DNA from: Rhizobium sp.
Lineage (GTDB): Bacteria; Pseudomonadota; Gammaproteobacteria; Burkholderiales; Thiobacillaceae
Assembly (NCBI GenBank): GCA_019459285.1
Contig: JAIBEL010000029.1
Location: 1 to 64,000 of the forward strand
Direction: 5' to 3'
Length of the DNA: 64,000 nucleotides
The position numbers were made by a program, and so were the translations under genes. Below, piece after piece: positions 22,370 through 39,556 of this stretch (positions within the stretch are counted from its first letter, which is position 1; each line of letters starts with the position of its first letter). The notes under the pieces are model-generated. The model was not told the origin of the DNA, searched no databases, and was given only the letters and a program-made list of their open reading frames with translations.

Positions 22370-23563
22370 ATGCAACTACATAACAAATTGTTTAAATCGC
22401 TGACGCTAACTGTGAGCCTTGTACTCGCTCCCCCTGCAGGCGCAACATCCTATTCCGTCTTGGCACTAGGTAACTGGTTTGGGGGATACAGTACCGCTTA
22501 TGGCATTAACGAAAGCGGACAAATAGCAGGAGATGCCATGACAGGTGCTTACTCGTCTATTGGCTTCATCTCCGGCCCTGATGGAGTAGGCACGATGGGC
22601 CTAGGCACTCTAGGCGGATATCAAAGCAACGCTAGAGGCATCAATCTCAGCGGGCAGGTAGTAGGGTGGGCTGGAACCAGCAGTGGCGATGCCCATGCCT
22701 TCATCACAGGCCCCAATGGAATGGGGATGACCGACCTGGGCACCTTAGGTGGACCTAACAGTTCCGCCATTAGTATCAATGATAGTGGGCAGGTGGCGGG
22801 GGGAGCCTACATAAACAGTACCGTAATTCATGCCTTCATCACTGGCCCCAATGGGATGGGGATGACCGACCTTGGCACTCTAGGTGGAGTTAGTAGCAGC
22901 GCGACTGGTATTAATGCACGTGGGCAGGTAGTGGGGAATTCCGCGACCGGCTCCGGCTCAGGTCATGCTTTTATTACTGGACCAAACGGAGTGGGCATGA
23001 ATGACCTCGGCACATTGGGTGGTGCGGGTAGTTACGCGAGAGGCATCAACGCGAACGGGCAGGTAGCAGGAGGAGCTATGATTTTGAATGGCTCTACTCA
23101 TGCCTTTCTCACTGGCCCGAATGGAACAGGCATGAATGACGTGGGTACCCTCCTAGGAGGCGGATGGAGCGATGCCTATGGCATCAACACGAGCGGGCAG
23201 GTGGTCGGGTGGGGAGGCTCAAGCACAGGCGTGTCGCATGCCTTCGTTACAGGTGTGAATGGGGAGGGAATAACCGATCTAAATGATTTAGCTTCGCTAC
23301 AAGGCGACTATTTCATGTGGGCTGGAGGCATTAATGATCAGGGGCAAATCATAGCCCAAAGCAGCTCTGGCCAAAGTTATCTGCTGACCCCCGTACCTGA
23401 GCCAGAGACCTTTGTACTAATGTTGGCAGGCTTAGGTTTGGTGAGATACGCTGCACGCAAAAAACAGAAATCTCAACGCAAGGTGGAAACCTTGGATAAA
23501 GAGTCAATAAGTGAAGCGCACTGTGCCGAATGGCGTCTCAACATACGCGCTCAAACCACTTAG
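22370..23563 (+). CDS. HAF-repeat extracellular protein with PEP-CTERM signal
   Basis: 397 residues. The signal peptide ends near PAGATS. About seven repeats follow, each with INxSGQVxG, HAFITGPNGxGM and DLGTLGG. A C-terminal PEP-CTERM sorting signal reads VPEPETFVLMLAGLGLV then RYAARKKQK. PEP-CTERM proteins are processed by exosortase and linked to exopolysaccharide export. Exosortase is not in the window. Oddly, about 30 further residues follow the basic cluster, where the signal normally ends the protein. Base composition is lower in GC than its neighbours, so recent acquisition is likely. Confidence 0.85.
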   Translation: MQLHNKLFKSLTLTVSLVLAPPAGATSYSVLALGNWFGGYSTAYGINESGQIAGDAMTGAYSSIGFISGPDGVGTMGLGTLGGYQSNARGINLSGQVVGWAGTSSGDAHAFITGPNGMGMTDLGTLGGPNSSAISINDSGQVAGGAYINSTVIHAFITGPNGMGMTDLGTLGGVSSSATGINARGQVVGNSATGSGSGHAFITGPNGVGMNDLGTLGGAGSYARGINANGQVAGGAMILNGSTHAFLTGPNGTGMNDVGTLLGGGWSDAYGINTSGQVVGWGGSSTGVSHAFVTGVNGEGITDLNDLASLQGDYFMWAGGINDQGQIIAQSSSGQSYLLTPVPEPETFVLMLAGLGLVRYAARKKQKSQRKVETLDKESISEAHCAEWRLNIRAQTT

Positions 23564-24553: not shown

Positions 24554-25585
24554 TTACGCCCCCGTGGTGCGCTGGGAAAACGCCACCAACTGCCGCAGTT
24601 TTTCGCGTGCCGCGCCGCTGCGGATGACCTCGCGCGCCATTTCGATGCCCTCGCCCAGGGTATCGGCACGGTCAGCCACGTAGATGGCAGCACCGGCATT
24701 GAGCAACACGATGTCGCACGCCGGCCCCGGCAATCCATCGAGCACGGACAGCAACATGTCCTTGGCCTGTGTCGCGTCCCACACCTTCAGCACCTCGCTG
24801 CCGCTGGTCTCCAGCCCGAACTCGCCCGGACGGATCGTGTATTCGCTGACTTCTCCGTCCTTCAGTTCGCCGATCAGGGTCTCGCCACTCAGGGTGATCT
24901 CGTCCATGCCGTCGGAACCGTGCACGACCATGACGTGGCGACTGCCGAGCCGCTGCAGCACGCGTACCAGGATGCCGACCAGGTCGGGATGGAACACACC
25001 CAGCAACTGGTGCGGCGCGCCGGCCGGGTTGGTGAGCGGGCCGAGGATGTTGAACAGCGTGCGCACACCCAGTTCGCGACGCACCGGGGCGGCGTGTTTC
25101 ATCGCGCCATGGAATTTCGGCGCGAACATGAAGCCGATGCCGATGGCGTCGATGCTCTCGGCCACCTGCTCGGGCGTGAGGTCGAGGTTCACGCCCAGCG
25201 CCTCCAGCACGTCGGCACTGCCGCTGGTCGACGAGACCGAGCGCCCGCCGTGCTTGGCGACGCGCGCCCCGGCTGCGGCAGCAACGAAGGCAGCGGTGGT
25301 CGAAATGTTGAAGGTGTGCGCGGCGTCGCCGCCGGTGCCGCAGGTGTCGACCAGGTGCGTGTCGTTCTGCGCCGGCACCTTGGCAGCGAATTCGCGCATC
25401 ACCTGCGCCGCGGCGGCGATCTCGCCGACGGTTTCCTTCTTTACCCTGAGGCCCGTGATGATGCCGGCGATCTGCACCGGCGTGAGCTCGCCGCGCATGA
25501 TCTGGCGCATCAGCGACAGCATCTCGTCGTGGAAGATTTCGCGCTGCTCGACCAGCCGGGCGAGCGCCTGCTGCGGCGTGATCAT
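24554..25585 (-). CDS. trpD: Anthranilate phosphoribosyltransferase TrpD
   Basis: 343 residues with the PRPP loop [17 protein letters not shown] near residue 80 and KHGGRSVSS. It transfers phosphoribose to anthranilate. The ATG overlaps the trpG stop (ATGA). Confidence 0.97.
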
Positions 25586-26151
25586 CGCGTCCCTTTCAGG
25601 AAATTCGCCAGCATGGCGTGCCCGTGTTCGGTCAGGATGGATTCGGGATGGAACTGCACTCCCTCGACCGCCAGCGTCTTGTGGCGGACCCCCATGATCT
25701 CGCCGTCGTCGGTCCAGGCGGTGATATCCAGGCAGTCGGGCAGCGACTCGCGTTCGATCACCAGCGAATGGTAGCGGGTGGCGCGGAAGGGATTGGGCAG
25801 CCCCTTGAACACGCCCACATCCAGGTGGTGGATCATCGAGGTCTTGCCGTGCATCAGTTCCTTCGCGCGCACGATCTTGCCGCCGAACGCCTGGCCGATG
25901 CTCTGGTGGCCGAGGCAGACGCCGAGGATGGGCACCTTGCCGGCGAACTCCTTGATCAGCGGCACCGATACGCCCGCTTCGTTGGGCGTGCAGGGGCCGG
26001 GTGAGACGACGATGTGGTCGGGTTTCAGCGCCGCGATGCCGGCGAGGTCGATTTCGTCGTTGCGGATCACCTTGACGTCTTCGCCCAGTTCACCGAAATA
26101 CTGCACGAGGTTGTAGGTGAAGCTGTCGTAGTTGTCGATCATCAGCAGCAT
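25582..26151 (-). CDS. trpG: Anthranilate synthase glutaminase component TrpG
   Basis: The 189-residue class I glutamine amidotransferase has [11 protein letters not shown], the nucleophile loop [10 protein letters not shown] and the FHPESI histidine. It supplies ammonia to TrpE, whose gene lies 13.4 kb away on the same strand. It could also serve PabB. It now starts a transcript after a strong terminator, so it must have its own promoter. Confidence 0.96.
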
Positions 26152-26374
26152 ATCGCGGCCATCCTATTGATTTGCATAGCCCCTGCTGCTTCGTCTGGAG
26201 AGGGATACCCGGCCGATCGTCCGGTTATTCTGTCGCTGCCGGGGAGGGCATCATTGAAAGGGGACATTATCCCCTGCCCGCGCATACCGCGACAAGTTCA
26301 GGACGGGTACTCTGGCTTGCCGGACGCCCTGATTCTCATATGGCCATCCCCCATGCCGGCCCGCCGCTGGCCTG

Positions 26375-26414
26375 CCATGAAAAAGGCCAACCACACAGTT
26401 GGCCTTTTTCATGG
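26375..26414 (-). terminator. 17-bp perfect hairpin terminator
   Basis: CCATGAAAAAGGCCAAC pairs perfectly with GTTGGCCTTTTTCATGG around a 6-base loop. The stem has T runs on both sides, so it can work in both directions. It lies about 60 bp after the c-type cytochrome stop and about 220 bp before the trpG start, so it isolates trpGDC from upstream transcription. No trp leader peptide was found between it and trpG. Confidence 0.85.
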
Positions 26415-26475
26415 CGCCATTTCGTCACACTGGAAGCATGCAAACGGCGTGCGACACACACGCCCACAACGACCG

Positions 26476-27120
26476 CTAGTTGGGCGAGATCCCCTGCAGG
26501 TAAGTCGTCACCGCCACCAAATCCAAGGACGTCAGGCCATGAACCAGGGGCTTCATCATCGCGCCTGCGGGACGCTGGTTGGTCTCCGACAGGATATGCA
26601 GCTGCTTCATCATGTAGTTGGCATGCTGGCCCGCCAGGCGCGGGAAAGTGTCCTTGCCCATGCCCATCGCACCATGGCAGCCCGCGCAGGCGGCCACCCC
26701 CTTGTCAGGGATGCCGTTCTCGAAAATCGCCTTTCCGGCTGCAACCGTTGCGGGATCACCTGCGACATTGGGTGCATCTTTCTGCTGCGAGAAATAGCGG
26801 GCCAGCCCCGCAATCTGCTCGTCGGTCAATTTCCGGGTAATACCCCACATATATTCCGAACCCGCAGGATCGATACGGTCATGCCCGCGGAAGAATTTGA
26901 GCTGGGCGATCAAATATGCTTCCTGCTGCCCGGCCAGCTTGGGAAAAGCGGGCGAAGTCGAATTGCCGTCCACACCGTGGCAGCTCGAGCAGACCTGCAA
27001 CGCCAGTGTCCGGCCCGATACATTCGGATTGCCGATATCGCGCGAGCGTTCCAGATTGACGCATCCGCTCCCCAGGCTCGCGATAGCCAGCGCCAACATC
27101 GTGTACACGGCTGTCTTCAT
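26476..27120 (-). CDS. Di-heme c4-type cytochrome lipoprotein
   Basis: 214 residues with lipobox LGSGC (Cys20). The two heme c sites are CSSCH (44-48) and CAGCH (145-149), in two homologous halves, each with FP(K/R)LAGQ as in cytochrome c4. It is probably anchored to a membrane on the periplasmic side as an electron carrier. It lies 44 bp after the porin-cytochrome gene and in line with sqr, so it may accept electrons from, or pass them to, that partner. Confidence 0.88.
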   Translation of the reverse strand: MKTAVYTMLALAIASLGSGCVNLERSRDIGNPNVSGRTLALQVCSSCHGVDGNSTSPAFPKLAGQQEAYLIAQLKFFRGHDRIDPAGSEYMWGITRKLTDEQIAGLARYFSQQKDAPNVAGDPATVAAGKAIFENGIPDKGVAACAGCHGAMGMGKDTFPRLAGQHANYMMKQLHILSETNQRPAGAMMKPLVHGLTSLDLVAVTTYLQGISPN

Positions 27121-27164
27121 ATTGGAATCCCTTCAGGTCAGAAAAGTGCGTTGCCAGGCCTGCT

Positions 27165-28538
27165 TTAGTAGGCGCCCCATACATAAACGAACAGCGTGTC
27201 GTTGTCGCTGGCACTGCGGCCAAAGCCATCGTAGTTGCTGCGGCTGCCACTGAATTTCGTGTAATGCCAGTATTGCGCGCCGATGCGAAGGTACTGGACG
27301 GGCGTCCAGAACACCTCGGGAATCCAGGCGGTCGTATCCGGGCTTCCGCTCAAATTGCCCGTGATGTCCGCCGGCCCGCCGAAAAATCCGGCATCGGTCG
27401 AGCCGGTAGTTTGCTGGTAGGCCAGACTGGCGCCATACGTGGCGTTGTAGACGTAGGCCCCCTTGATCTTGAGTTCCTTCAGGGTATCGCTCGCATTGTC
27501 GTAGCCGAGTGCCAGCGGGTCGCCCCACTTCACGTTTTCGTGGATGTAACTGATGTGGGCCGTGACCGTGTGCGGGTCGAGGATGTACTGGTATTGCGCA
27601 TCCAGCCCGTAATCCCGGTAGCGGTCGGTCGGCTGGTTGACGTCGTTGTTCTCGTGGATCTCGGCGACCAGGCCCGAGGTGCCGATCATCAGGTCATGCG
27701 GCCCGAACGCCTTGGTGTAGGCAAGTCGCCAGTAGGGCGCGCCGTCCTTGATCCTCGCGATGCCGGAGTTGTCCCCCGGGTGCAGGAGTCCGAAGGGGCC
27801 GTTGGCCGTCTTGTAGAGCGCGAGTTCGCCATAGAGGCTTCTGTTCCAGTAGGCATAGACGCCGGCACCCACCGCGTCTTGCCCAAGTCCGCCGTCGAGC
27901 AGGGGCGATGCGGGTGCGCCGAGCGCGAACGTCGGCCCGACATAGGGATAGCTCCAGGCCGGCGCACTGTTCCACACATCCTGCATGCTCGGGTTGTTGT
28001 TGGCGAACGCGCCGACGATGAGATCGCTGCCCGGCGAGATGAAGCGATCGGCATAGCGAAATTCCGTGTTGTCCGGACTCAGGTGGCCCACCCAGTCGCC
28101 GTTGTCCTGCTGGTGGTCATAGTTCGCGTAGGTCGCTTGCGCGAACAGGCCGAGGTTGTCGGTAATCTTGCCCGCCAGGAAAACGCTGCCGACGTCGAAT
28201 ATCGCCGTGCCCTGCTTGTGGAAATCCACGGTGTCCTTCACCCCGGTGGAGTCCTTGGGGTTGCGGACCCGGGTGTAGTCGAGGACCGCCATCACCGAGA
28301 GGGGCATGGCGCGGGCACCCATCGTATAGCCGGTGAGCTTGAACAGCCGCCCGTATGGGGTCAGTTCCGGAAACTGGCCGCCGGCGTGGCAGGCCAGGCA
28401 GTTTTGCCCTGTCTGCCGGGCAAAAGCCGGAAGCGCATAGCTGGGAAAGGACCACATCCCCAGCAAGACAAGAGCGAGCAAGGCCGGGAGAACGCCCTGC
28501 ACCCTCAAAACATGGCGCCAAGCTGATTTGGTTATCAA
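27165..28538 (-). CDS. Monoheme cytochrome-porin fusion (Cyc2-like)
   Basis: 457 residues. A signal peptide ends near SYA (34). A single heme site NCLACH (47-51) follows in FARQTGQNCLACH, then FPELTPYGRLFKLTGYT, and about 380 residues of alternating amphipathic strands ending in aromatic WGAY, as in outer-membrane beta-barrels. This layout matches the fused cytochrome-porin group that includes the iron oxidase Cyc2. The start is a TTG at 28538 preceded by GGGGAG at 7 bases. Upstream in-frame codons give no sensible leader. It is followed by the c4-like cytochrome. The substrate could be iron, sulfide, polysulfide or something else. Confidence 0.78.
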   Translation of the reverse strand: MITKSAWRHVLRVQGVLPALLALVLLGMWSFPSYALPAFARQTGQNCLACHAGGQFPELTPYGRLFKLTGYTMGARAMPLSVMAVLDYTRVRNPKDSTGVKDTVDFHKQGTAIFDVGSVFLAGKITDNLGLFAQATYANYDHQQDNGDWVGHLSPDNTEFRYADRFISPGSDLIVGAFANNNPSMQDVWNSAPAWSYPYVGPTFALGAPASPLLDGGLGQDAVGAGVYAYWNRSLYGELALYKTANGPFGLLHPGDNSGIARIKDGAPYWRLAYTKAFGPHDLMIGTSGLVAEIHENNDVNQPTDRYRDYGLDAQYQYILDPHTVTAHISYIHENVKWGDPLALGYDNASDTLKELKIKGAYVYNATYGASLAYQQTTGSTDAGFFGGPADITGNLSGSPDTTAWIPEVFWTPVQYLRIGAQYWHYTKFSGSRSNYDGFGRSASDNDTLFVYVWGAY

Positions 28539-28772
28539 GTGCGTTCTCCCCAAAAAATCGACATTGGAAACAGCCTGCTTATTCCAGCACTGGCACGGCG
28601 CCTCGTGCGTTGCAAAAAACATCAGCGTTGCATGGATAAAAAACAAAAACCAAATGTGTTGCATAAAAGAACAGTTTAATTAATAGGACACGCTTATCCG
28701 TTGTTCAAGGGCGCCCCATAAAATTAAACAGGGCCGGTCATCGCCGCATCGCCATACATGGCGCACACCCAT

Positions 28773-28796
28773 AAAAAAAGCGCCCGAAGGCGCTTT
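28773..28796 (-). terminator. Terminator after sqr
   Basis: AAAGCGCC / GGCGCTTT around a TTCG loop is followed by a run of T on the minus strand, 20 bp after the sqr stop. It separates sqr from the porin-cytochrome gene, though read-through cannot be excluded. Confidence 0.9.
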
Positions 28797-28816
28797 GATG
28801 CCAGGCATCGAGGGGA

Positions 28817-30085
28817 TTATTTGAGCTTCTTGATCCCCATCAGGCCCAGCACATATTTCTCGTACAGCGGCTCGGTCGAGCCTTTTTTCATTTTGCGCAT
28901 GAAGTATTTCTCGAACGCCACCTTGGCCAGGTGAACCCACTTGCCTTCCTTGAACCAGTTGACGTTGCGCGGCGGGATTTGCGGCAGCGCGACGAAGGCC
29001 GCGCCAGTGTCGCCGAAATCGGCCAGGCAGATGGCATTCCAGGAGGCTTTCTCGGTGGGCTCGCGACCATCGAGCACCGCACGGATGTTGTGTGCCGTGG
29101 CCGTGACCATGGACTCGATCATGTAGCCGGTCTTGGGCGTGCCGGTGGGCACCGGCGTGGGCTCGACCGGCGGAATGGCGACGCACACGCCGACCGAATA
29201 GATGTTCGGGAACTTGGGATTGCGCTGATAGGGGTCGATGACGATGAAACCGCGCGGGTTGGTGAGCCCCTCGATGCCGAACACGGCGTCGATGCCCTTG
29301 AACGCCGGCAGCATCATGGAGTAGGCGAACGGCAGTTCATGCTCCTTGATCACCTCGCCTTTTTCGTTGTGCTCGGAGACGAACATCTTGCCGGCCTCGA
29401 CCTTGGTGACCTTGGCATTGCAGATCCACTTGATGTGGCGGTCGCGCATCACGGACTCCATCATGCCCTTGGAGTCGCCGACGCCGCCCAGGCCCAGGTG
29501 GCCGATATAGGGCTCGGCAGTGACGTAGGTCATCGGCACCTTGTCGCGAATCTTGCGCTTGCGCAGATCGGTGTCCATGATCATCGCGAACTCGTACGCC
29601 GGGCCGTAGCACGAGGCGCCCTGCACCGCGCCGACCACGACGGGCCCCGGAGCCTGCACGAAATCGTCCCACACCTTGCCTGCCGCCACGGCGTGCTCGA
29701 CCTGGCAGATCGACTGGGTATGCCCTTCCGGCCCCAGTCCGGGCACCTCATCGAAAGCCAGCTTGGGGCCGGTCGCGATGACGAGGAAATCGTAGTCCAC
29801 GATCTGGCCGTCGGTGAGCTCGAGCTGGTTCTTCTCGGGGTGCACGCGCGCCGCGCCGACCGCGATGAAATCGATGTTCTTCTTGTTCAGGTACGGCGCG
29901 GCGGGAATCGTGACGTCGTCGCGCTTGCGCCAGTTCACTGCCACCCAGGGATTGGACGGCGTGAACTGGAAATACGGCAGATTCGAAATCACCGTGATCT
30001 TGTCTTCCGTCCGCGCCGATTCGCGCATTTCATAGGCCATGGTCATGCCACCCACGCCTGCACCCAGAATAACGATATGTGCCAT
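28817..30085 (-). CDS. sqr: Sulfide:quinone oxidoreductase, type I
   Basis: The 422-residue FAD protein oxidises sulfide to sulfane sulfur and reduces quinone. It has the N-terminal FAD motif ILGAGVGGMT. The three redox cysteines fall at C127 (SICQVEH), C159 (GASCYGPAYE) and C353 (NAICLADFGD), the same numbering as the well-studied type I enzymes. The PTPVPTGTPKTGYMIE quinone region and the amphipathic C-terminus FEKYFMRKMKK are present. The ATG at 30085 follows AAGGAGG. It is driven by a sigma-54 promoter and diverges from a FisR-type activator. Confidence 0.95.
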   Translation of the reverse strand: MAHIVILGAGVGGMTMAYEMRESARTEDKITVISNLPYFQFTPSNPWVAVNWRKRDDVTIPAAPYLNKKNIDFIAVGAARVHPEKNQLELTDGQIVDYDFLVIATGPKLAFDEVPGLGPEGHTQSICQVEHAVAAGKVWDDFVQAPGPVVVGAVQGASCYGPAYEFAMIMDTDLRKRKIRDKVPMTYVTAEPYIGHLGLGGVGDSKGMMESVMRDRHIKWICNAKVTKVEAGKMFVSEHNEKGEVIKEHELPFAYSMMLPAFKGIDAVFGIEGLTNPRGFIVIDPYQRNPKFPNIYSVGVCVAIPPVEPTPVPTGTPKTGYMIESMVTATAHNIRAVLDGREPTEKASWNAICLADFGDTGAAFVALPQIPPRNVNWFKEGKWVHLAKVAFEKYFMRKMKKGSTEPLYEKYVLGLMGIKKLK

Positions 30086-30103
30086 GCAGTCCTCCTTGTT
30101 TGA

Positions 30104-30127
30104 TGTTGGCCAGTATTGCGGCCAACA
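30104..30127. promoter_or_regulatory. Inverted repeat at the sqr transcription start
   Basis: TGTTGGCC and GGCCAACA are separated by 8 bp, just downstream of the -12 box. In RNA this would form a hairpin in the leader. In DNA it could be an operator for a second regulator. Its role is not known. Confidence 0.45.
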
Positions 30128-30131
30128 CCAT

Positions 30132-30147
30132 TGCAACAGGCATGCCA
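30132..30147 (-). promoter_or_regulatory. Sigma-54 promoter for sqr
   Basis: The minus strand reads TGGCATGCCTGTTGCA, matching the -24 TGGCAY and -12 TTGCA boxes with GG-N10-GC spacing. The -12 box is about 48 bp from the sqr ATG. The divergent FisR-like activator fits this dependence. Confidence 0.8.
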
Positions 30148-30250
30148 CCCCGAAAAAGTGTCCTGCATGCGGGCTGCCGGGGAGAAACGGATTTGACATG
30201 GCCATTGCGTCATGCCATTTTCCACTCTTGTCATGACGAGAGTGTCAGAT

Positions 30251-31549
30251 ATGGACATCGAACTTCAAGGCCTGATCGACACGCACGAACAGCCGTTCGT
30301 GGTAATCGACCGCAGCTACCGCATCGTCGCCGCCAATCAGCGCTACTGCGACACCTACGGGATGACGCCCGCCGCCATCGTCGGCCAGCACTGCCACGCG
30401 GTATCCCACCACTCGCAGCGACCCTGCCACGAAAACGGCGAACATTGCCCGCACCAGGCGTTGTTCGCCCAGGGCGAAACGGTAGAAGTCCTGCACACCC
30501 ATTACCACGCCGACAACCAGCCCGAACGCACCCGCATCCGCGGACACCGCTTGCGCGGCGCGGATGGCGAGCTCTATCTGGGCGAGCAGCTGTTCCCGCT
30601 GGAGGCCGAGGCGGGCAGCGAATGCGACGCCATGCAGATGATCGGGCAGTCGCCCGCCTTTCTCGCCTGCGTCGACAACCTTGCACGCGTGGCCGAGAGC
30701 GAGGCCTCGATCCTGCTATACGGCGAGAGCGGCGTCGGCAAGGAACTTGCCGCACGCTTCATCCATGCGCGCTCCAGCCGCGCAGGCACGGCATTCATCG
30801 TCATCAATTGCGCAGCCGTGCCGGAAAGCCTGTTCGAGAGCGAACTCTTCGGCCACGAACGCGGTGCGTTTTCCGGCAGCAACGGCCTGAAAAAAGGCCT
30901 GTTCGAACTCGCCGACAACGGCACCCTCTTCCTCGACGAAGTAGGCGAGATCCCGCTGGCCATGCAGGCCAAGCTGCTGCGCGTACTGGAAACCGGCGAA
31001 TTCCGCCGCGTCGGCGGCACGCAGACGCTGACTGCCGACGTGCGCGTGGTGTCGGCCACCAACCGCAGGCTGCTCGATGAAGTCGATGCCAAGCGTTTCC
31101 GGCTCGACCTCTATTACCGCCTGGCCGGCATCGACGTCACCCTGCCGCCGCTGCGCGAGCGCGCCGCCGACCTGCCCGACCTGGCGAACTTCCTGCTGAA
31201 GCGGCTGACCGGCGGACAAAGCCCCTGCCGCCTCGCACCGGACGCCGTCTCGGCATTGCAGGCCTACGACTTCCCCGGCAATGTGCGCGAACTGCGCAAC
31301 CTCCTGCAGCATGCCGTGCTCAGCTGCCGCGACGGCACCATCCGCGCAGCCGACCTGCGATTGCCGCCGCGCGTCGCGCACACACGCCCCGACGCCGCCA
31401 GCGCCTCGCTGCGCGACATGGAACGCGCGCACCTGCAATCCCTGCTCGACGCGCACCAGGGCCATCGCGCCCGCGTCGCCGCCGCGCTGGGCGTCACCGA
31501 GCGCACGCTGTACCGCAAGCTCAAGCAACACGGGTTGGGGAAGAACTGA
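30251..31549 (+). CDS. fisR: FisR-type sigma-54 activator sensing sulfane sulfur
   Basis: The 432-residue protein has an N-terminal PAS-like sensing domain (about 5-110), a sigma-54 AAA+ domain (about 130-360; Walker A GESGVGKE, GTLFLDEVGEI) and a C-terminal Fis helix-turn-helix (RVAAALGVTERTLYRKL). C48, C59 and C66 have the same 11/7 spacing as the three cysteines by which FisR of Cupriavidus senses polysulfide. The loop that contacts sigma-54 reads GAFSGS rather than GAFTGA. The ATG at 30251 is chosen because the PAS domain begins there. It is divergent from sqr. Confidence 0.88.
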   Translation: MDIELQGLIDTHEQPFVVIDRSYRIVAANQRYCDTYGMTPAAIVGQHCHAVSHHSQRPCHENGEHCPHQALFAQGETVEVLHTHYHADNQPERTRIRGHRLRGADGELYLGEQLFPLEAEAGSECDAMQMIGQSPAFLACVDNLARVAESEASILLYGESGVGKELAARFIHARSSRAGTAFIVINCAAVPESLFESELFGHERGAFSGSNGLKKGLFELADNGTLFLDEVGEIPLAMQAKLLRVLETGEFRRVGGTQTLTADVRVVSATNRRLLDEVDAKRFRLDLYYRLAGIDVTLPPLRERAADLPDLANFLLKRLTGGQSPCRLAPDAVSALQAYDFPGNVRELRNLLQHAVLSCRDGTIRAADLRLPPRVAHTRPDAASASLRDMERAHLQSLLDAHQGHRARVAAALGVTERTLYRKLKQHGLGKN

Positions 31550-31908
31550 ATCCGTTCCCGGCTTCCCCCCAAGAAGCCGCTCAAAATGTGCAGCCATACT
31601 GGCGACGAGTGAAGCGACATAGAGGCGGATGATGATGGCGGGGAAAAACACTGAAAGGAGGCTTAGCAAGAAATGCCGTCTCTGCGTGATCGCTATTCCG
31701 GCCAAAGCCGACGGTGAGAATGCAGAGACGGAATCGTCCGCTCCCCGACTCAGTCCGGTTAATGCATCTCACGTAGGTGCGATGGCAGCCCAACTTAATG
31801 GCCCGACCGTGAGTGCCAATCAACCTGCCGGCAAGTCATCGACCAGCGAATAGCAACCAAGTGCCGGTCAGGCTACTTGCTTGAAGCGCAATACGTGTAG
31901 CCCTCCTA
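31550..31908. other. Intergenic segment with possible remnant sequence
   Basis: Only short open frames are present on either strand (for example a 74-codon frame at 31629-31853). None matches a family I recognise. An internal AAAGGAGG occurs without a following convincing gene. This spacer marks a shift to visibly lower GC that continues through the aldehyde dehydrogenase module, so it may be a worn junction of acquired DNA. Confidence 0.35.
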
Positions 31909-32289
31909 TCAGATATCCACCTCATTTATCGCGTGACTCAACTCCGACCTCTCTTCATCAGTGAAGAGTCTGGACCGCGTCAAAAAAGCTTTTCCTTCCG
32001 GTCCTTCGAGCGAGAAAGTTCCGCCTCCATAGCCATCGATGACGTCGATGATCAGCTGAGTGTGCTTCCAGTATTCATATTGCGATTTACTGATATAAAA
32101 CGGGCAGCCGCCGATATCGCCCAGATAGTCATCGCCGGCACCAATGGTGATCTCACCTGGCAGAAAACAGTTGGCGGCGCTGTTGTCGCAACAACCTCCC
32201 GACTGGTGAAACATCAGTGGACCGTGTTTCTTCTTCAAGAACTCGATCAGTTCAACTGCAGCGGGTGTGGCGATGACTTTTTCAACCAT
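31909..32289 (-). CDS. DUF779 family protein
   Basis: 126 residues starting MVEKVIATPAAVELIEFL, with the family core HGPLMFHQSGGCCDNSAANC and FYISKSQYEYW. The vicinal cysteines suggest metal or redox binding, but function is unknown. DUF779 genes regularly follow NAD-dependent aldehyde dehydrogenases, as here (69 bp downstream). The start at 32289 follows GAGGAG. Confidence 0.9.
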   Translation of the reverse strand: MVEKVIATPAAVELIEFLKKKHGPLMFHQSGGCCDNSAANCFLPGEITIGAGDDYLGDIGGCPFYISKSQYEYWKHTQLIIDVIDGYGGGTFSLEGPEGKAFLTRSRLFTDEERSELSHAINEVDI

Positions 32290-32358
32290 CCACGGCTCCT
32301 CGACAAGAAAGAGGCAGTTGCTCACCCCGGTTGGATTTGCTGGACAGATTTTATTCGG

Positions 32359-33879
32359 TCAGAAGAAGCCGAGCTTCTGTTCAGCGTAGCTGACCAGAAG
32401 GTTCTTAGTCTGCTGGTAGTGATCGAGCATGACTTTGTGAGTCTCGCGGCCAATGCCCGATTCCTTGTAGCCACCGAAAGCTGCGTGTGCCGGATAGGCA
32501 TGGTAGCAGTTGGTCCACACCCGTCCAGCCTTGATGGCGCGGCCCATGCGGTAGGCGACATTGCCGTTGCGACTCCACACACCGGCGCCGAGACCGTAAA
32601 GGGTGTCGTTGGCGATAGCCAGGGCTTCGGATTCATCCTTGAAAGTGGTCACGGCCAATACAGGTCCAAAAATCTCTTCCTGGAAGATGCGCATCTTGTT
32701 GTGGCCTTTGAACAAGGTCGGCTGCACGTAATAACCGCCATTCAGTTCGCTGCCGACATCGGCCTGGGCGCCGCCGATCAGCACATTAGCGCCTTCCTGC
32801 TTGCCAAGATCAAGGTAGGACAGGATCTTGGCAAGTTGCTCCTTCGAAGCCTGGGCACCAACCATAGTATCGGTATCCAGCGGATTGCCTTGCTTGATCG
32901 CCTTGACGCGAGCCAAGCAGCGTTCCATGAATTTGTCGTAGATGGATTCCTGGATCAGGGCGCGCGAGGGGCAGGTGCATACTTCGCCCTGGTTGAACGC
33001 GAACAGCACCAAGCCTTCAATGGCCTTGTCGAGGAAGCTGTCGTCAGCCGCCATCACGTCTTCGAAAAAGATATTGGGTGACTTGCCGCCAAGTTCCAGT
33101 GTGGCCGGGATCAGGTTGTTGGCGGCTGCCTGGGCGATAACGCGGCCGGTGGTAGTAGAGCCGGTAAATGCAATCTTGGCGATACGCTTGCTAGTGGCGA
33201 GCGGCATACCCGCTTCGCGGCCAAAACCGTTGACGATGTTGAGCACGCCCGGCGGGATGATGTCGGCGATCAATTCTGCAACGATGAGGATGCTCACCGG
33301 TGTCGATTCGGCCGGCTTCAGAACCACGCAGTTGCCGGCAGCCAGGGCTGGCGCCAGCTTCCAAACGGCCATCAGGATGGGAAAGTTCCAGGGGATGATC
33401 TGGCCGACCACGCCCAGCGGTTCATGGAAATGGTAGGCGACGGTGTTCTCGTCGATCTCGCCAATGCTGCCCTCTTGAGCGCGCACGCAACCGGCGAAAT
33501 AGCGAAAGTGGTCGATGGCCAGAGGGATGTCTGCGTTGAGGGTTTCGCGGATCGGTTTGCCGTTGTCCACCGTCTCGACATAGGCCAGTAATTCGAGGTT
33601 GGCTTCCATGCGGTCGGCGATCTTAAGCAGTATGTTGGCGCGCTCACCGACCGAGGTTTTGCCCCATTTGTCGGCGGCCGCGTGAGCGGCATCCAGAGCC
33701 AATTCGACATCATCGGCACCGGAGCGGGCTGCCTTGGTGTAAGACTTGCCGTTGATCGGGGTGATCACGTCAAAGTATTCGCCTTTGACCGGGGCCACCC
33801 ACTTGCCGCCGATGAAATTGTCATACTGTGTTTTGAATTTGACGTTGGCATCAACATTGCCCGGTGGCGCATAAATCAT
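32359..33879 (-). CDS. NAD-dependent aldehyde dehydrogenase (ExaC/AcoD type)
   Basis: 506 residues with the ExaC-like start [15 protein letters not shown], the nucleotide loop FTGSTTTG, the catalytic Glu262 in LELGGKSPN and Cys301 in GEVCTCPS. It oxidises acetaldehyde or similar aldehydes to the acid. The ATG at 33879 follows AAGGAGA. It has a sigma-54 promoter, a divergent AcoR-like activator and a DUF779 partner. GC is visibly lower than the surrounding housekeeping genes. Confidence 0.94.
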
Positions 33880-33949
33880 TTTGTCTCCTTCGAAGGTTTG
33901 GTGTAGCTGGTTATGATCGAGCGTGACGCAGCAATCGATGGCCATATCC

Positions 33950-33964
33950 GCAAAGACTATGCCA
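33950..33964 (-). promoter_or_regulatory. Sigma-54 promoter for the aldehyde dehydrogenase
   Basis: The minus strand reads TGGCATAGTCTTTGC, with GG and GC exactly 10 bp apart, about 70 bp upstream of the dehydrogenase ATG. The activator-site cluster at 34032-34087 lies about 70-125 bp further upstream, the normal enhancer distance. Confidence 0.8.
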
Positions 33965-34031
33965 GTGGTCGAATAGTGGGCTAAATCAAGCCAAGTCATT
34001 AATCGGATTCAGACTTGTGGCCTGGCATCGA

Positions 34032-34087
34032 CCTGTAATACAGGCGCCTGACACGTGTCAGGCTGACACGCTGCGCCAAATTGACAC
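34032..34087. promoter_or_regulatory. Candidate enhancer sites for the AcoR-like activator
   Basis: A perfect palindrome CCTGACACGTGTCAGG spans 34047-34062. Two further TGACAC half-sites follow at 34064 and 34082, and a second palindrome CCTGTAATACAGG precedes it at 34032. AcoR/MimR-class regulators bind TGACAC-type dyads. Binding here is inferred from position and sequence. Confidence 0.7.
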
Positions 34088-34173
34088 ACCTCCAGATCCT
34101 AATTGGCAGCGGGTTTTGCGACGTCAGAGCGAAGCCGTATAGTAAGGAACGTTTTAGTTGGGAGGTCGTCAGC

Positions 34174-36120
34174 ATGCTCAGTCCGACACCGAGAAGACCC
34201 GCCGCCGCCTTGCGTCAGGCGCGCAACCAGTTACTGGAAAGCGGCCAGTTGCCCTACGACAACCTGGTTGGCCCGGTAATCGCCCGCTCATGGGCACGCA
34301 GCCAGCAAGCCGGCCTGGCACCGGTCGGCCGGCTACCGGAGGTGCAATATCTAAACGCTTCGCAATTGACGCGCCTGATCGCCCACCAACAGGAACTCAT
34401 CGGCCACGCCCGGCCCATCATGGAGTATCTCTACAGCCAGTCGCGGGACAGCGGAAGCGTGGTGATCCTGGCCGATGATCATGGCGTTCTACTGCAAGCC
34501 GTGGGCGACGCCGATTTTCTTGATCGGGCCGAGCGTGTAGCCCTGACGCCAGGGGCTTCCTGGAACGAGTGCCATCGCGGCACCAACGCCATCGGAACGG
34601 CCCTGGCCGAGGCAGCGCCGGTGGTCATCAATGGCGCTGAACACTTTTTGGAGCGCAACAGTTTTCTGACCTGCGCCGCCGCCACAGTTGCGGCTCCCGA
34701 CGGTCGGCTATTGGGCGTACTGGACATCTCCGGCGACCAGCGACGCCGTCATCCACATACCTTCTGTTTGGTGCGAACTGCCGCGCAAATGATCGAGAAC
34801 CGGCTGTTCGAGGTTTACCACAGCGGCGATGTGCATCTGCGCTTTCACACGCTGGCGGAAGGCATCGGCACTCTGACGGAAGGCGTGCTGGCCCTTTCCC
34901 GAGAGGGATTGATCGCTGGTGCCAATCCAGCCGCCATTCGTCAACTGGGGCTGCACAGCGCAGACCTGGGCAGCCTGCCACTGGAAAGCGTCTTCCATTT
35001 ACGTCTATCCGAATTGCTCGATTGGGGCTATCGCCGGGGCCACGAACCGATGCTGGTTGAGCATACAGCCAGGCCAGGTCGAGCCAGCATCAGTCGCCTG
35101 TTCGTGCGGGTTGAAACCAGCCGCGTGGTGCGTCAAGTGGCGGTGTCACAGCCCACTCCACCAACACCCAGGACTGATGCGCTGGCCGCCCTGGACATTG
35201 GCTGCGACCTCATCACGACAGCCATCGGCAAGGCTCGCAAGGTACTCGACAAGCCCATCCCGGTGTTGTTGCAAGGCGAATCGGGAGTCGGCAAGGAGGT
35301 ATTTGCCAATGCCATGCATAACTCGGGTCCGCGCCGCAAACATCCCTTCATCGCCGTAGATTGCTCGGCTTTGCCGGAAAACCTCATTGAGGCTGAACTG
35401 TTCGGTTATTCGCCCGGCGCTTTCACCGGAGCACGCCGGGAAGGCTCGCCGGGCCGCATCCGCGAAGCGCAAGGCGGCACCCTGTTCCTGGATGAGATCG
35501 GAGACATGCCGCTGGTCATGCAAACTCGGCTGCTGCGCGTTTTGCAGCAACGTCAGGTGACGCCGTTGGGAGGCAGCAAACCGGTGGCAGTGGATTTCGC
35601 ACTGATCAGCGCAACCCACCGCAATTTGCGGATGGAAATGGAAGCCGGCCGCTTCCGCGCCGACCTGTACTACCGCATTAACGGCATGACTCTGATGCTG
35701 CCAGCACTACGCGAGCGCAAGGATTTCCCAGCCTTACTCAATCATCTGCTCGAAGATTTGTTACCCGGCCGGAGAGTCGCCTTCGATGCCAGCATTTCCG
35801 CCGCCTTCGCTGATTTCTCCTGGCCCGGCAACTTGCGCCAGCTGGTCAACGCCTTGCGCACCGCTTGTGCCTTGATCGAAAGCGATGAATGCCACATTGG
35901 GTGGCAACACCTGCCGGATGATCTGGTCGAAGAGTTGCGCCGACACGGTTCGCGTAGGATTGTGCCGACGGAAGTCACGGAAAATCTTCAGGACGTTTCG
36001 GCCACTATCATCAGCCGGGCCATCAGCCTGAGTGGCGGAAACATGTCGGAAGCGGCTCGTCGTCTGGGCATCAGCCGCAATACGCTTTATCGGCGCTTGA
36101 AGAAAATAGGGAGATCCTGA
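34174..36120 (+). CDS. AcoR-like sigma-54 activator (GAF-AAA+-Fis)
   Basis: 648 residues. A GAF sensor region (about 60-230) precedes a sigma-54 interaction domain (about 335-555) with Walker A GESGVGKE, an intact GAFTGA loop and GTLFLDEIGDM. A Fis-type HTH (NMSEAARRLGISRNTLYRRL) ends the protein. The architecture is that of AcoR/ExaE-like regulators of acetoin, ethanol or aldehyde metabolism. The ATG at 34174 follows GGGAGG. Divergent placement argues that it controls the aldehyde dehydrogenase-DUF779 pair. Confidence 0.9.
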   Translation: MLSPTPRRPAAALRQARNQLLESGQLPYDNLVGPVIARSWARSQQAGLAPVGRLPEVQYLNASQLTRLIAHQQELIGHARPIMEYLYSQSRDSGSVVILADDHGVLLQAVGDADFLDRAERVALTPGASWNECHRGTNAIGTALAEAAPVVINGAEHFLERNSFLTCAAATVAAPDGRLLGVLDISGDQRRRHPHTFCLVRTAAQMIENRLFEVYHSGDVHLRFHTLAEGIGTLTEGVLALSREGLIAGANPAAIRQLGLHSADLGSLPLESVFHLRLSELLDWGYRRGHEPMLVEHTARPGRASISRLFVRVETSRVVRQVAVSQPTPPTPRTDALAALDIGCDLITTAIGKARKVLDKPIPVLLQGESGVGKEVFANAMHNSGPRRKHPFIAVDCSALPENLIEAELFGYSPGAFTGARREGSPGRIREAQGGTLFLDEIGDMPLVMQTRLLRVLQQRQVTPLGGSKPVAVDFALISATHRNLRMEMEAGRFRADLYYRINGMTLMLPALRERKDFPALLNHLLEDLLPGRRVAFDASISAAFADFSWPGNLRQLVNALRTACALIESDECHIGWQHLPDDLVEELRRHGSRRIVPTEVTENLQDVSATIISRAISLSGGNMSEAARRLGISRNTLYRRLKKIGRS

Positions 36121-36252
36121 CTTGGCTTCCATGATGCCTGAACTCAAAGGACCACATTCAAAACCTCCGCATACTTGGCGTCTGACGGTCCGTTCCGACA
36201 CCACCGCCATTCAAAAAATCGGCAGCTGAAGACGACCATCGTCCGCATCATC

Positions 36253-36837
36253 ATGCCCAACCGCCCCCGCTGCACCTGGTGCGGCACCGATCCGCTCTAC
36301 TGCGCCTACCACGACGAGGAATGGGGCGTGCCGCTGCACGACGAGCGCGCGCTGTTCGAATTCCTGATCCTGGAAGGCGCGCAGGCGGGGTTGTCGTGGT
36401 TCACCATCCTGAAGAAGCGTGAAGGCTACCGGCGCGCGTTCGACCATTTCGACGTCGAGCGCATCGCGCGCTACGGCGAGGCGGACGTGGCGCGGCTGAT
36501 GGCGGATGCGGGCATCGTGCGCAACCGGCTGAAGATCGAATCGACGATCACCAATGCGCGCGCGACGCTGGCGCTGCGCGAGACGGGCGGGCTGGACGCC
36601 TACTTCTGGAATTTCGTGGACGGCCGCCCCATCGACAACGCGAGGAAAAACATCGGTCAGGTGCCGGCCAGCACGCTCCTGTCCGACGCGATCAGCAAGG
36701 ATCTGAAAAAGCGCGGCTTCAAGTTCGTCGGCTCGACCATCGTGTATGCGCACATGCAGGCCACGGGCATGGTCAACGACCATACGGTGGATTGCTTCCG
36801 CCATCGCGAGGTGGCCGCCGCGGCTCAGCGGAAGTAG
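36253..36837 (+). CDS. tag: DNA-3-methyladenine glycosylase I
   Basis: 194 residues starting MPNRPRCTWCG, with the Tag signature cysteines and histidines (CTWCG, CAYHDEEWGVP, and H plus C in the C-terminal DHTVDCFRH) that bind zinc. It excises 3-methyladenine from alkylated DNA. The 3' end overlaps the convergent AraC regulator gene by 13 bp. Confidence 0.95.
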   Translation: MPNRPRCTWCGTDPLYCAYHDEEWGVPLHDERALFEFLILEGAQAGLSWFTILKKREGYRRAFDHFDVERIARYGEADVARLMADAGIVRNRLKIESTITNARATLALRETGGLDAYFWNFVDGRPIDNARKNIGQVPASTLLSDAISKDLKKRGFKFVGSTIVYAHMQATGMVNDHTVDCFRHREVAAAAQRK

Positions 36838-37595
36838 CCGCTGGGCGACGCGCCGAACTGGCGTTTGAACATGGTGGCGAAGGCGCTCGGGCTGTTGTAG
36901 CCCAGGTTGAGCGCGACGTCGACGACCTTCACGCCCGCGGCCAGTTGTTCCAGGGCGGTGAGCAGGCGCGCCTGCTGGCGCCACTGGCCGAAGGTCATGC
37001 CGGTCTGGCGGGCGAAGCGGCGCTGGATGGTCTTGGCGTCGACGCCCAGGCGGCCGGCCCAGTCGGTGAGAGTGGAGGCGTCGTCGGGCGTATCGGTCAG
37101 GACGCGGCAGATGGTCAGCAAATCCGGATCGTTAGGCTGCGGCAGATGCAACGGCAGGCTGGGCAGCACCGCCACCTCGTCGAGCAGCAACTGCATCAGG
37201 CGGCCGTCGCGCGCAGCCGGATCGTAGGGCTGCACCACCTCGATAGCCGCCAGAATCAGTTCGCGCAGCAGCGGCGAGATGCCGACCACCTGGCAGTCGG
37301 CCGGCAGGTTCGGGCTGGCGTCGGGGCGGATGTAGACGGTGCGGACCTGGACGTCGCCGACCATGCGGATGCCGTGCGGTTCGCGCGCCGGCACCCAGAG
37401 CCCGCGCGTGGGCGGCACCACCCATTGGTCGCCCCGGGCAGCGACCACCATGACGCCCTGGACGGCATGGATGAGTTGGGCGGTAGGGTGACTGTGGCTG
37501 GGTACCACGTGGCCGGTGGGATAGTCGATGGCCTTGCCGGTCACGGGCATGTAGCCCTGGTCCCGATCCAGGCCGCTGTGCAGGTGAATGTCCAT
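36825..37595 (-). CDS. AraC family regulator with N-terminal cupin
   Basis: 256 residues. The N-terminal cupin (about 20-110) has HVVPSHSHPTAQLIH and WVPAREPHGI. The C-terminal double HTH (about 155-256) has LGVDAKTIQRRF and ALNLGYNSPSAFATMFKRQFG. This subgroup often regulates a neighbouring exporter. The divergent MFS gene begins 87 bp away. Confidence 0.9.
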   Translation of the reverse strand: MDIHLHSGLDRDQGYMPVTGKAIDYPTGHVVPSHSHPTAQLIHAVQGVMVVAARGDQWVVPPTRGLWVPAREPHGIRMVGDVQVRTVYIRPDASPNLPADCQVVGISPLLRELILAAIEVVQPYDPAARDGRLMQLLLDEVAVLPSLPLHLPQPNDPDLLTICRVLTDTPDDASTLTDWAGRLGVDAKTIQRRFARQTGMTFGQWRQQARLLTALEQLAAGVKVVDVALNLGYNSPSAFATMFKRQFGASPSGYFR

Positions 37596-37682
37596 TTCGA
37601 AAAGGTCGATGCCTTAATTCAGCGAGACGGACAAGCATCTTAGCCCTAAATTGGTGCCTCGCATTCTTTCGAGCCTGCCGCC

Positions 37683-38915
37683 ATGACGACCGCGCATTCC
37701 GACGCCGACCGCACCGCCTTCAAGGTACTGGGCGCGATCAGCTTCTCGCATTTTCTCAACGACACCATGCAGTCGCTGCTGATCGCGAGCTACCCGCTGT
37801 TCAAGAGCGGGCTCCATCTCAGCTTCGCGCAGATCGGGCTGATCACGCTGGCCTTCCAGTTCACCGCCTCGCTGCTGCAGCCGCTGGTGGGCATCTATAC
37901 CGACCGCCATCCGAAGCCGTTCTCGCTGGCGCTGGGCATGGGCTTCACCCTTGCCGGCCTGCTCCTGCTGTCGCAGGCGACCACGTTTCCGCTGCTGCTA
38001 GCCGCAGCCGCACTGGTCGGCAGCGGCTCGTCAATCTTCCACCCGGAAGCGTCGCGGGTGGCACGCATGGCCTCGGGCGGCCGGCACGGACTGGCCCAGT
38101 CGATCTTCCAGGTAGGCGGCAATGCCGGGGCGGCCTTCGGCCCGTTGCTCGCGGCCTGGGTCGTGCTGCCGCACGGCCAGAAAAGCCTGGCCGTGTTTTC
38201 GCTCTTCGCGCTGCTGGCGATGATCGTGCTGGCGGGCGTCGGCATCTGGTACCGCGACCAGCACCGCAAGCCGAAAAAGGCCGCGTCCGCCGCCGGCCAC
38301 GATCTGCCGCGCGGCCGCGTGCTGCGCACGCTGGCGGTGCTGATGGCGCTGATGTTCTCCAAGTTCTTCTACCTGGCCAGCATCAGCAGTTATCTGATCT
38401 TCTATCTGATGCAGCACTACGGCATCGACGCGCAGGAAGCGCAGTACCACCTGTTCTACTTCCTGTTCGCGGTGGCGGCGGGCACGCTGCTGGGCGGGCC
38501 CATCGGCGACCGCATCGGCCGCAAGCGGGTGATCTGGCTGTCCATCCTGGGCGTGGCACCGTTCACGCTGGCACTGCCCTACGTGGGCCTGGCCGCGTCG
38601 GCGGGGCTGACGCTGATCATCGGCTTCATGCTGGCCTCGGCCTTCCCGGCCATGGTGGTCTACGCGCAGGAACTGATGCCGGGCAAGGTCGGCACGGTGT
38701 CGGGGCTGTTCTTCGGACTGGCTTTCGGCCTGGCCGGTATTGGCGCCGCTGTGCTGGGCGGGCTGGCCGACCACTGGGGCATCGAAACGGTCTACCTGCT
38801 GTGTTCGTTCTTGCCGCTGATCGGCCTGCTGGCGGTGTTTCTGCCAGATCTGCGCAGTCAGGTCGGCGCGGTGCGGGCGAACCCCATGCCGTCCGCCACG
38901 ATTCCGGTCAAATGA
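37683..38915 (+). CDS. MFS exporter, fosmidomycin-resistance (Fsr) family
   Basis: 410 residues with about twelve hydrophobic segments. It has the Fsr start FSHFLNDTMQSLLIASYPL, GSGSSIFHPEASRVAR in the first half and DRIGRKRVIW between halves. It is an inner-membrane drug/proton antiporter of uncertain substrate. It is divergent from the AraC regulator, which probably controls it. Confidence 0.92.
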   Translation: MTTAHSDADRTAFKVLGAISFSHFLNDTMQSLLIASYPLFKSGLHLSFAQIGLITLAFQFTASLLQPLVGIYTDRHPKPFSLALGMGFTLAGLLLLSQATTFPLLLAAAALVGSGSSIFHPEASRVARMASGGRHGLAQSIFQVGGNAGAAFGPLLAAWVVLPHGQKSLAVFSLFALLAMIVLAGVGIWYRDQHRKPKKAASAAGHDLPRGRVLRTLAVLMALMFSKFFYLASISSYLIFYLMQHYGIDAQEAQYHLFYFLFAVAAGTLLGGPIGDRIGRKRVIWLSILGVAPFTLALPYVGLAASAGLTLIIGFMLASAFPAMVVYAQELMPGKVGTVSGLFFGLAFGLAGIGAAVLGGLADHWGIETVYLLCSFLPLIGLLAVFLPDLRSQVGAVRANPMPSATIPVK

Positions 38916-38975
38916 CGCAGGCCAGCTCTCCTCTCATCCCGGAAAAACCGGTACGACTGACGGTCCTAGCCGGCG

Positions 38976-39515
38976 CTAGGCGGCGCGTGCCATCTCCCCG
39001 AGTTTGCGCACGGTGTTCCAGTTGCGGCTGGTCATCGGCACGCCCAGCAGACGTTCCAGGGCAGCAGCGAGTCTGGATCGGCCGATGCCGTCCGGCGCAT
39101 GCAGGTAGAGCACGTCGCCCGCCAGCTGAAAACGTTCGCTCGCGGCCCGGAGTTTTTCCAGGCCATCGAGATTGGGCTGGGGCGGAACGCTTGCGAGGAA
39201 ATTCACGTACAGGGTACCGGGCACGGCCTCCGCTTCGGGATAGGGATTGCCCCTGATCACCTGTTCCAGCGTTGGCATATCGAGCAGCCGTACCCATGGT
39301 TCGAAGCCGTGGCTTTTGCCGATGACGGCACCGATCCTTTTCGACAGAAGCGCGGGATTGACTGGCTTGCCCTGGAACACCACGTTGCCACTCTGAATGT
39401 AGGTCTCGACACTTCGCAGGCCGATCCCTTCCAGCACCGCCGCCAGTTCTTTCATCGGCAGCTTGTTGTTCCCGCCAACGTTGATGCCTCGAAAGAGTGC
39501 AATATACGTTTTCAC
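38976..39515 (-). CDS. DUF1697 family protein
   Basis: 179 residues with the family start YIALFRGINVGGNNKLPMKEL and the C-terminal NWNTVRKLGEMA. These small cytoplasmic proteins are common and uncharacterised. It lies just downstream of trpE on the same strand (41-bp gap), in the position where trpG would be expected. Confidence 0.9.
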   Translation of the reverse strand: MKTYIALFRGINVGGNNKLPMKELAAVLEGIGLRSVETYIQSGNVVFQGKPVNPALLSKRIGAVIGKSHGFEPWVRLLDMPTLEQVIRGNPYPEAEAVPGTLYVNFLASVPPQPNLDGLEKLRAASERFQLAGDVLYLHAPDGIGRSRLAAALERLLGVPMTSRNWNTVRKLGEMARAA

Positions 39516-39556
39516 CGCGTTGTCTCACCCGAGCGCCCGGCCGGGCCGGGTTCGCG

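Follow-up and report, generated by a model that had tools for sequence, protein, structure and literature searches.

We present here a pair of genes for a Cyc2-type porin-cytochrome and a diheme c4-type cytochrome, located as a cassette between sqr and trpG in a 64,000-nucleotide stretch of DNA (referred to as the window) from a member of the Thiobacillaceae. The pair is probably a self-contained Cyc2-Cyc1-like unit that would serve a sulfur oxidizer as a facultative electron inlet for Fe(II). The main novelty is that a single site carries the cassette in some members of a genus and lacks it in others, the model strain of this genus reportedly being without Cyc2; the FNR-like boxes found upstream of cyc2 in other Burkholderiales are also new.

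Positions 26476-28538 comprise two genes, each on the minus strand. The cyc2-type gene (27165..28538) encodes 457 amino acids and probably starts with the TTG at 28538, ahead of which a GGGGAG block is kept in 8/8 aligned loci; the open-frame list puts the frame start at an upstream ATG, 28664. Cyc2 has been defined by a signal peptide, one CxxCH preceded by AxPxFAR[Q/K][T/Y] and followed by PxL, a length of at least 365 residues, and a barrel of 16 strands (PMC8406198). The window protein contains an N-terminal signal-like stretch (judged by eye) with its one heme c site, CLACH, just behind (residues 47-51; 28386..28400, minus strand), the signature ALPAFARQT (residues 35-43; 28410..28436, minus strand), and PEL five residues past CLACH. 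CxxCH is present in 38/38 proteins selected by BLAST, the window protein included. AlphaFold2, run on a 60-sequence alignment, predicted 16 strands with a mean pLDDT of 84.9 and a pTM of 0.86, the heme region (mature residues 1-20) having a pLDDT of <50. Foldseek and VIA-align matched the barrel to the general porins OmpC, OmpF, and PorB (Z ~22), and the solved structures matching it include 5o78, reported as the closest solved fold of Acidithiobacillus Cyc2 (PMC10654088). No family in Pfam or NCBIfam scored above cut-off for the porin-cytochrome, PHROGs gave nothing useful, and one sequence search of the PDB returned two matches only (E values of 0.046 and 0.48) and another none. In the barrel, D156, R271, and D313 are nearly always retained, also in the presumed Zetaproteobacteria rows described below; the rows used for the tree and for residue conservation were chosen by a heme-motif regex, which makes motif conservation among them circular. 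Met83 was considered as the distal heme ligand across all Cyc2 and is present in 126/135 rows; this was dropped, as Val stands there in 14/18 cluster-1-like rows and Arg in 7/7 cluster-3-like rows. By every feature open to testing, in sequence and in model, the predicted porin-cytochrome is a member of the Cyc2 family. An earlier note on this DNA had proposed this from the layout of one N-terminal heme c and a barrel, and had named a non-barrel fold, or clustering with unrelated porins and an unconserved heme site, as outcomes that would speak against it; neither occurred.

The second gene (26476..27120, minus strand) follows cyc2 after 44 bp. Its product is a diheme c4-type cytochrome with Pfam Cytochrom_C in two stretches, two CxxCH motifs, and a lipobox-like GSGC at residues 17-20, and with its two heme domains it matches the solved c4 structures 1etp (E value of 5.8e-34) and 1h1o (E value of 1.9e-31), the latter of which we take to be a c4 of the A. 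ferrooxidans type. A c4 gene lies after cyc2, on the same strand and within 1,500 bp, in 107/121 loci, many of them in heterotrophs, and in 78 of the 80 named loci among the matches listed, two of which duplicate unnamed loci. The 14/121 loci in which no c4 was found are 12 of the unnamed set plus L173, whose contig leaves no room for the gene, and L190, where room is present. Among the 72 partners recognized by the gene caller, to which the lipobox reading is limited, 51 have a lipobox-like pattern, 8 have a cysteine there without the pattern, and 13 have neither. Residue +2 of the site in the window is Val, which under the Lol rule of E. coli would place the lipoprotein on the outer membrane's inner face. 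The c4-like partner claimed in the earlier note is thus supported, and its lipid anchor is probable. Between c4 and trpG, a hairpin with A/T runs (26380..26409) is the probable terminator of the pair, and similar hairpins were seen by eye after c4 in L048, L056, L111, L113, and L114. Close downstream genes beyond c4 were found in 38 cases, 19 of which were scanned, giving HiPIP in L162, L070, and L073 and YceI in L050; in alignments of 12 of the 38, nine resemble the L050 YceI protein at 59-86% and two at only 23-25%, one of these two being a response regulator.

Homologues of the Cyc2-type protein were found in 14/60 genomes of a first draw (own genome counted), 71/399 genomes of the order (E value of ≤1e-15), and 21/274 genomes of the class (E value of 1e-10), and a profile search of the phylum matched 85/349 genomes at 1e-5. 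Of these 85 genomes, 65 come from one family of another class (f237), whose matches cover mainly the N-terminal part. We take f237 to be presumably Zetaproteobacteria because of its motifs (AIPAFARQTG and A[IL]PVFARKYG) and because some of its genomes hold both types; Zetaproteobacteria genomes with both Cyc2 clusters 1 and 3 are reported (PMC7029218). A scan of named genomes gave at least 595 stretches, at least 566 of them relatives, from which 80 loci were kept. Among the matches listed, the closest is the Thiobacillus denitrificans metagenome-assembled genome (MAG) UBA2410 (98%), followed by MAGs labeled only Proteobacteria or Hydrogenophilales (75-82%) and by Trinickia, Rugamonas, Collimonas, Ramlibacter, Polaromonas, Sulfuricella, Pseudomonas fluorescens, Ralstonia pickettii, and others (40-55%).

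A tree was built from 108 of 160 distinct frames, kept from 177 that bear the motif, in a quick IQ-TREE run that gave SH-aLRT supports only and a long-branch warning, with the root put on cluster-3-like rows. The window protein and seven Thiobacillus-type rows form one clade (SH-aLRT of 100), nested in a 45-row set (95) with a Ferrovum MAG. A 60-row clade (99), nearly all Burkholderiales, contains the window protein, the Ferrovum MAG, and Sulfuricella rows. Outside it, on the same side relative to the presumed Zetaproteobacteria rows (88), is the row L108/L249, which has a rus-like operon; by eye, this consists of cyc2, a blue-copper-like frame, cox-like frames, and a second blue-copper-like frame, and the rusticyanin model matches it below its cut-off. 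With the cluster labels that we inferred for the reference rows, the placement of the window protein is in keeping with Cyc2 cluster 2, described as Acidithiobacillus, Ferrovum, and Thiomonas (PMC12285272). Since a similarity network already ties homologues from Burkholderiales and Nitrosomonadales to Acidithiobacillus Cyc2 and Cyc1 (PMC10654088), this kind of protein is known. Two loci of the same genus, L053 and L055, carry a different Cyc2-like protein, ~35% identical and on another branch, and no c4 was found behind that gene.

Among described systems, the Cyc2/rus operon of Acidithiobacillus resembles the pair in its one CxxCH, AxPxFARQ-type signature, 16-strand barrel, and adjoining gene for a c4-type diheme cytochrome. 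The window unit differs in having no cox, rusticyanin, or cup, in the lipobox-like site of its c4, and in its trp locus; instead of the set cyc2-cyc1-cup-cox-rus, its neighbors are sqr and trp genes. The Cyc2-Cyc1 pairs of Sulfuriferula and Sulfuricella, sulfur-oxidizing betaproteobacteria, show the same order of cyc2 then c4 at ~46% identity (L050, L140, and L144) but are followed by a YceI-type gene in all three loci and have no sqr within the fetched stretches. Zetaproteobacteria Cyc2 (cluster 1, Cyc2PV-1) shares the signature and overall layout, whereas the profile aligns over only about the N-terminal third of the presumed rows, and these branch apart from the window's Cyc2 in the tree.

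The next gene upstream of cyc2, 278 bp off, is sqr (28817..30085, minus strand), which encodes a sulfide:quinone reductase of the 3kpk type (E value of 5.9e-164). An intrinsic terminator directly after sqr (28777..28796, minus strand) is kept in 8/8 aligned loci; the scan of the region found 6 such sites against 3.7 expected. The order FisR-like regulator, sqr, cyc2, c4 occurs in 8/8 loci of the window (Thiobacillus) type. A search with sqr matched 43/45 genomes in the family; of 30 loci retrieved, 26 have no cyc2 in the fetched stretch, a few of these stretches stopping soon after sqr. In 15 of these 26, with L268 scored on gene order, sqr is followed directly by trpG, the right border of the site (25582..26151 in the window, minus strand, from comparison of empty and occupied sites). 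The printed sqr-trpG gaps of the empty sites contain a terminator-like hairpin, and the regulator stands beside sqr in 23 of the 26 loci, once as a fragment. Because the empty sites run from sqr through such a hairpin to trpG, the cyc2-c4 cassette sits between the sqr terminator and trpG. Some genomes without cyc2 at this site have a distant Cyc2-like gene elsewhere (e.g., G028, G029, G123, and G164). On the sqr tree, cassette-bearing genomes are scattered and four changes are needed, at least three of them forced by well-supported branches. Since the cyc2 genes nevertheless make up a single clade and share their site, the best-fitting histories are an early acquisition followed by several losses or an exchange of this region among lineages. 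The whole trpG-trpE interval (26152-39556) is a variable site that holds regulator-sqr in many relatives and cyc2-c4 in some, and here also an aldehyde dehydrogenase and other genes; L049, L112, and L113 have other inserts between c4 and trpG.

Divergent from sqr and beside it is a sigma54 activator (30212..31549, plus strand) with the PAS, sigma54 AAA, and Fis helix-turn-helix domains of a FisR-like regulator and cysteines at 61, 72, and 79 in the arrangement C-x10-C-x6-C, the last of which presumably matches the third cysteine of FisR. This cysteine spacing is found in 29/29 regulators recognized across 34 loci, five loci having none in their stretch. The first spacing, 11, is that of the linked Cys53-Cys64 of Cupriavidus FisR (PMC9495516); in Acinetobacter, FisR likewise acts divergently on its sqr operon, and those cysteines are not kept there (PMC7315123). 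Divergent placement beside sqr is shared with these operons; the regulator of the window faces sqr, and a reach to cyc2 is without support here. A sigma54-like site, TGGCATGCCTGTTGCA, lies upstream of sqr (30132..30147, minus strand) with 1 mismatch, its GG and TTGC conserved across the eight aligned loci; the pattern is uninformative alone, with 12 matches in the window against 15.4 expected. The same 8-locus alignment reveals a conserved block upstream of cyc2 (28655..28690, minus strand), which we read as a putative promoter or regulator region of cyc2's own. Upstream of 99 other cyc2 genes, words of this block seldom occur (0 to 3 times for the longer words). A sigma54 site upstream of cyc2 was rejected, one pattern giving 0/107 upstream regions.

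With the terminator kept in 8/8 loci and cyc2 apparently having its own upstream block, co-transcription of sqr and cyc2 was rejected as the main mode, and pairing with sqr as a general trait of the family was rejected as well, since sqr is near cyc2 in at least 9/121 loci, one of them on the other strand, with flanks of differing length. The first upstream neighbors of cyc2 (68/90 scanned) have no common family, at most three sharing a Pfam family. Because of the conserved terminator and block, the empty sites, and the scatter of the cassette on the sqr tree, any functional link between cyc2 and sqr would be weak, and the adjacency looks positional rather than the sign of a shared job. The earlier note had placed the gene directly downstream of sqr; the position stands at 278 bp, and the functional tie drawn from it is weak, given the terminator, the sigma54-like site and cysteine-bearing regulator on the sqr side, and the 15/26 empty sites.

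The host genome contains a single match to the Cyc2 protein, four SQR-like genes, and, over cut-off, two dsrA and two ccoN. It gave no MtrB/PioB match, no match to the rusticyanin model at an E value of 0.001, and none to the SoxB model TIGR04486, which is under cut-off in all 14 control genomes too; four SQR-like genes and two dsrA without a SoxB model match are unexpected for Thiobacillus. The two dsrA and four SQR-like genes point to a sulfur oxidizer; electron entry at its outer membrane, the general proposal of the earlier note, is likely. Elsewhere in the window (22370-23563), a protein with GTLGG repeats had no Pfam match at 1e-5; we take the repeats to be HAF-like and its end to be PEP-CTERM-like. 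In the portions of the literature on Thiobacillus cyc2 and on the heterotroph genera that were available, we found no report of this cyc2-c4 locus.

In the scheme that we infer, from substrate and direction of electron flow to heme position, anchoring, and downstream partners, Fe(II), probably dissolved, would enter the 16-strand outer-membrane barrel and pass one electron to the sole heme c, located in the N-terminal domain of ~40 residues. The next recipient would be the diheme c4 protein, probably tethered by lipid to the outer membrane's inner face; carriers in the periplasm would then deliver the electron to a cbb3 oxidase or some other acceptor. Placed as a cassette between sqr and trpG, the pair would add a facultative donor route. 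In favor of Fe(II), the published Cyc2 signature and fold are present where they could be tested, and the c4 pairing repeats the cyc2-cyc1 layout at the head of rus operons (PMC10654088). The tree position in a clade with a Ferrovum MAG, the match of the partner to solved c4 proteins, and a genome with two ccoN and no MtrB/PioB match count on the same side. In the sulfur oxidizer Sulfuriferula, whose Cyc2 comes closest to cluster 2 and is joined by a Cyc1, growth on ferrous iron was reported for the strains under study (PMC12285272). The donors suggested earlier (an insoluble donor, mineral sulfide, elemental sulfur, or an electrode) are unsupported by these findings; since it has been argued for single-heme Cyc2 that Fe2+ has to enter the pore (PMC8406198), dissolved Fe(II) is favored. 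Against the Fe(II) reading, no oxidase or blue copper gene adjoins the pair, no c4 was found in 14/121 loci, the heme region is modeled at low confidence, and the barrel matches ordinary porins. Many of the named carriers are heterotrophs, to our knowledge not known to live on iron. T. denitrificans oxidizes Fe(II), and its model strain is stated to lack Cyc2 (PMC11963766 and PMC3753534); authors working on Gallionellaceae would not conclude iron oxidation from a cluster 2 Cyc2 that stands alone and lacks context (PMC10734462).

The carriers also bear on a different reading, in which the unit would be an auxiliary or protective electron inlet at low oxygen that removes or senses external Fe(II) or small reductants, in heterotrophs and Thiobacillus alike, rather than a means of growth on iron. 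Collimonas, Rugamonas, Ramlibacter, Paraburkholderia, Ralstonia, and Pseudomonas among the carriers are consistent with it, as are FNR/ANR-like boxes (TTGAT-N4-ATCAA) ahead of cyc2 in L057, L058, L064, L076, L117, L160, L162, L182, and others. Outside the window's group, 37/99 cyc2 loci have such a box upstream with at most 1 mismatch, against 52/968 control genes (exact boxes, 19/99 and 19/968), counts that are inflated by kinship and refer to a motif chosen post hoc from the same data. The window's own group (8 loci) has no FNR box upstream of cyc2: a candidate there was rejected, as the matches in 6/8 loci fall in the last codons of sqr. We consider this reading unlikely.

Less probable still is a route across the outer membrane that would serve sulfide, sulfur, or a mineral sulfide and operate jointly with the adjoining SQR. 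Here sqr is adjacent on the same strand in all eight window-type loci, at cyc2 identities down to ~75%, FeS would yield both sulfide and Fe(II), and in L063, a separate neighborhood in another lineage, a 68% identical sqr comes next after cyc2-c4 on the opposite strand. These points are outweighed by the kept terminator, by the 15/26 loci in which sqr meets trpG directly, by the small number of loci with sqr near cyc2 overall (at least 9/121), and by the varied upstream neighbors. The resemblance of the barrel to general porins could suggest a porin that takes no part in electron transfer and whose heme domain is vestigial, a reading that we hold to be very improbable: the heme domain is strongly conserved (CxxCH in all 38 BLAST-selected proteins), the diheme partner is kept, and so, with few exceptions, are D156, R271, and D313, presumed Zetaproteobacteria rows included.

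The family itself is known; what deserves a note is its scattered occurrence in Thiobacillus and its consistent pairing with c4. The function of cluster 2 Cyc2s is said to hinge on supporting context (PMC10734462), and the conserved c4 partner and the FNR-like boxes supply such context. A wider picture, which we put forward with considerable doubt, is that Cyc2 with a lipid-anchored c4 may form a unit for electron intake at low oxygen that is mobile and widespread among Burkholderiales (and in some Pseudomonas), that would let ordinary heterotrophs and sulfur oxidizers use external Fe(II), and that Thiobacillus lineages would gain and lose at one chromosomal site. T. denitrificans serves as a model organism in work on nitrate-dependent iron oxidation, yet is stated to be without Cyc2 (PMC11963766 and PMC3753534); close relatives with and without the cassette at one site offer a natural comparison for what Cyc2 contributes to a sulfur oxidizer.
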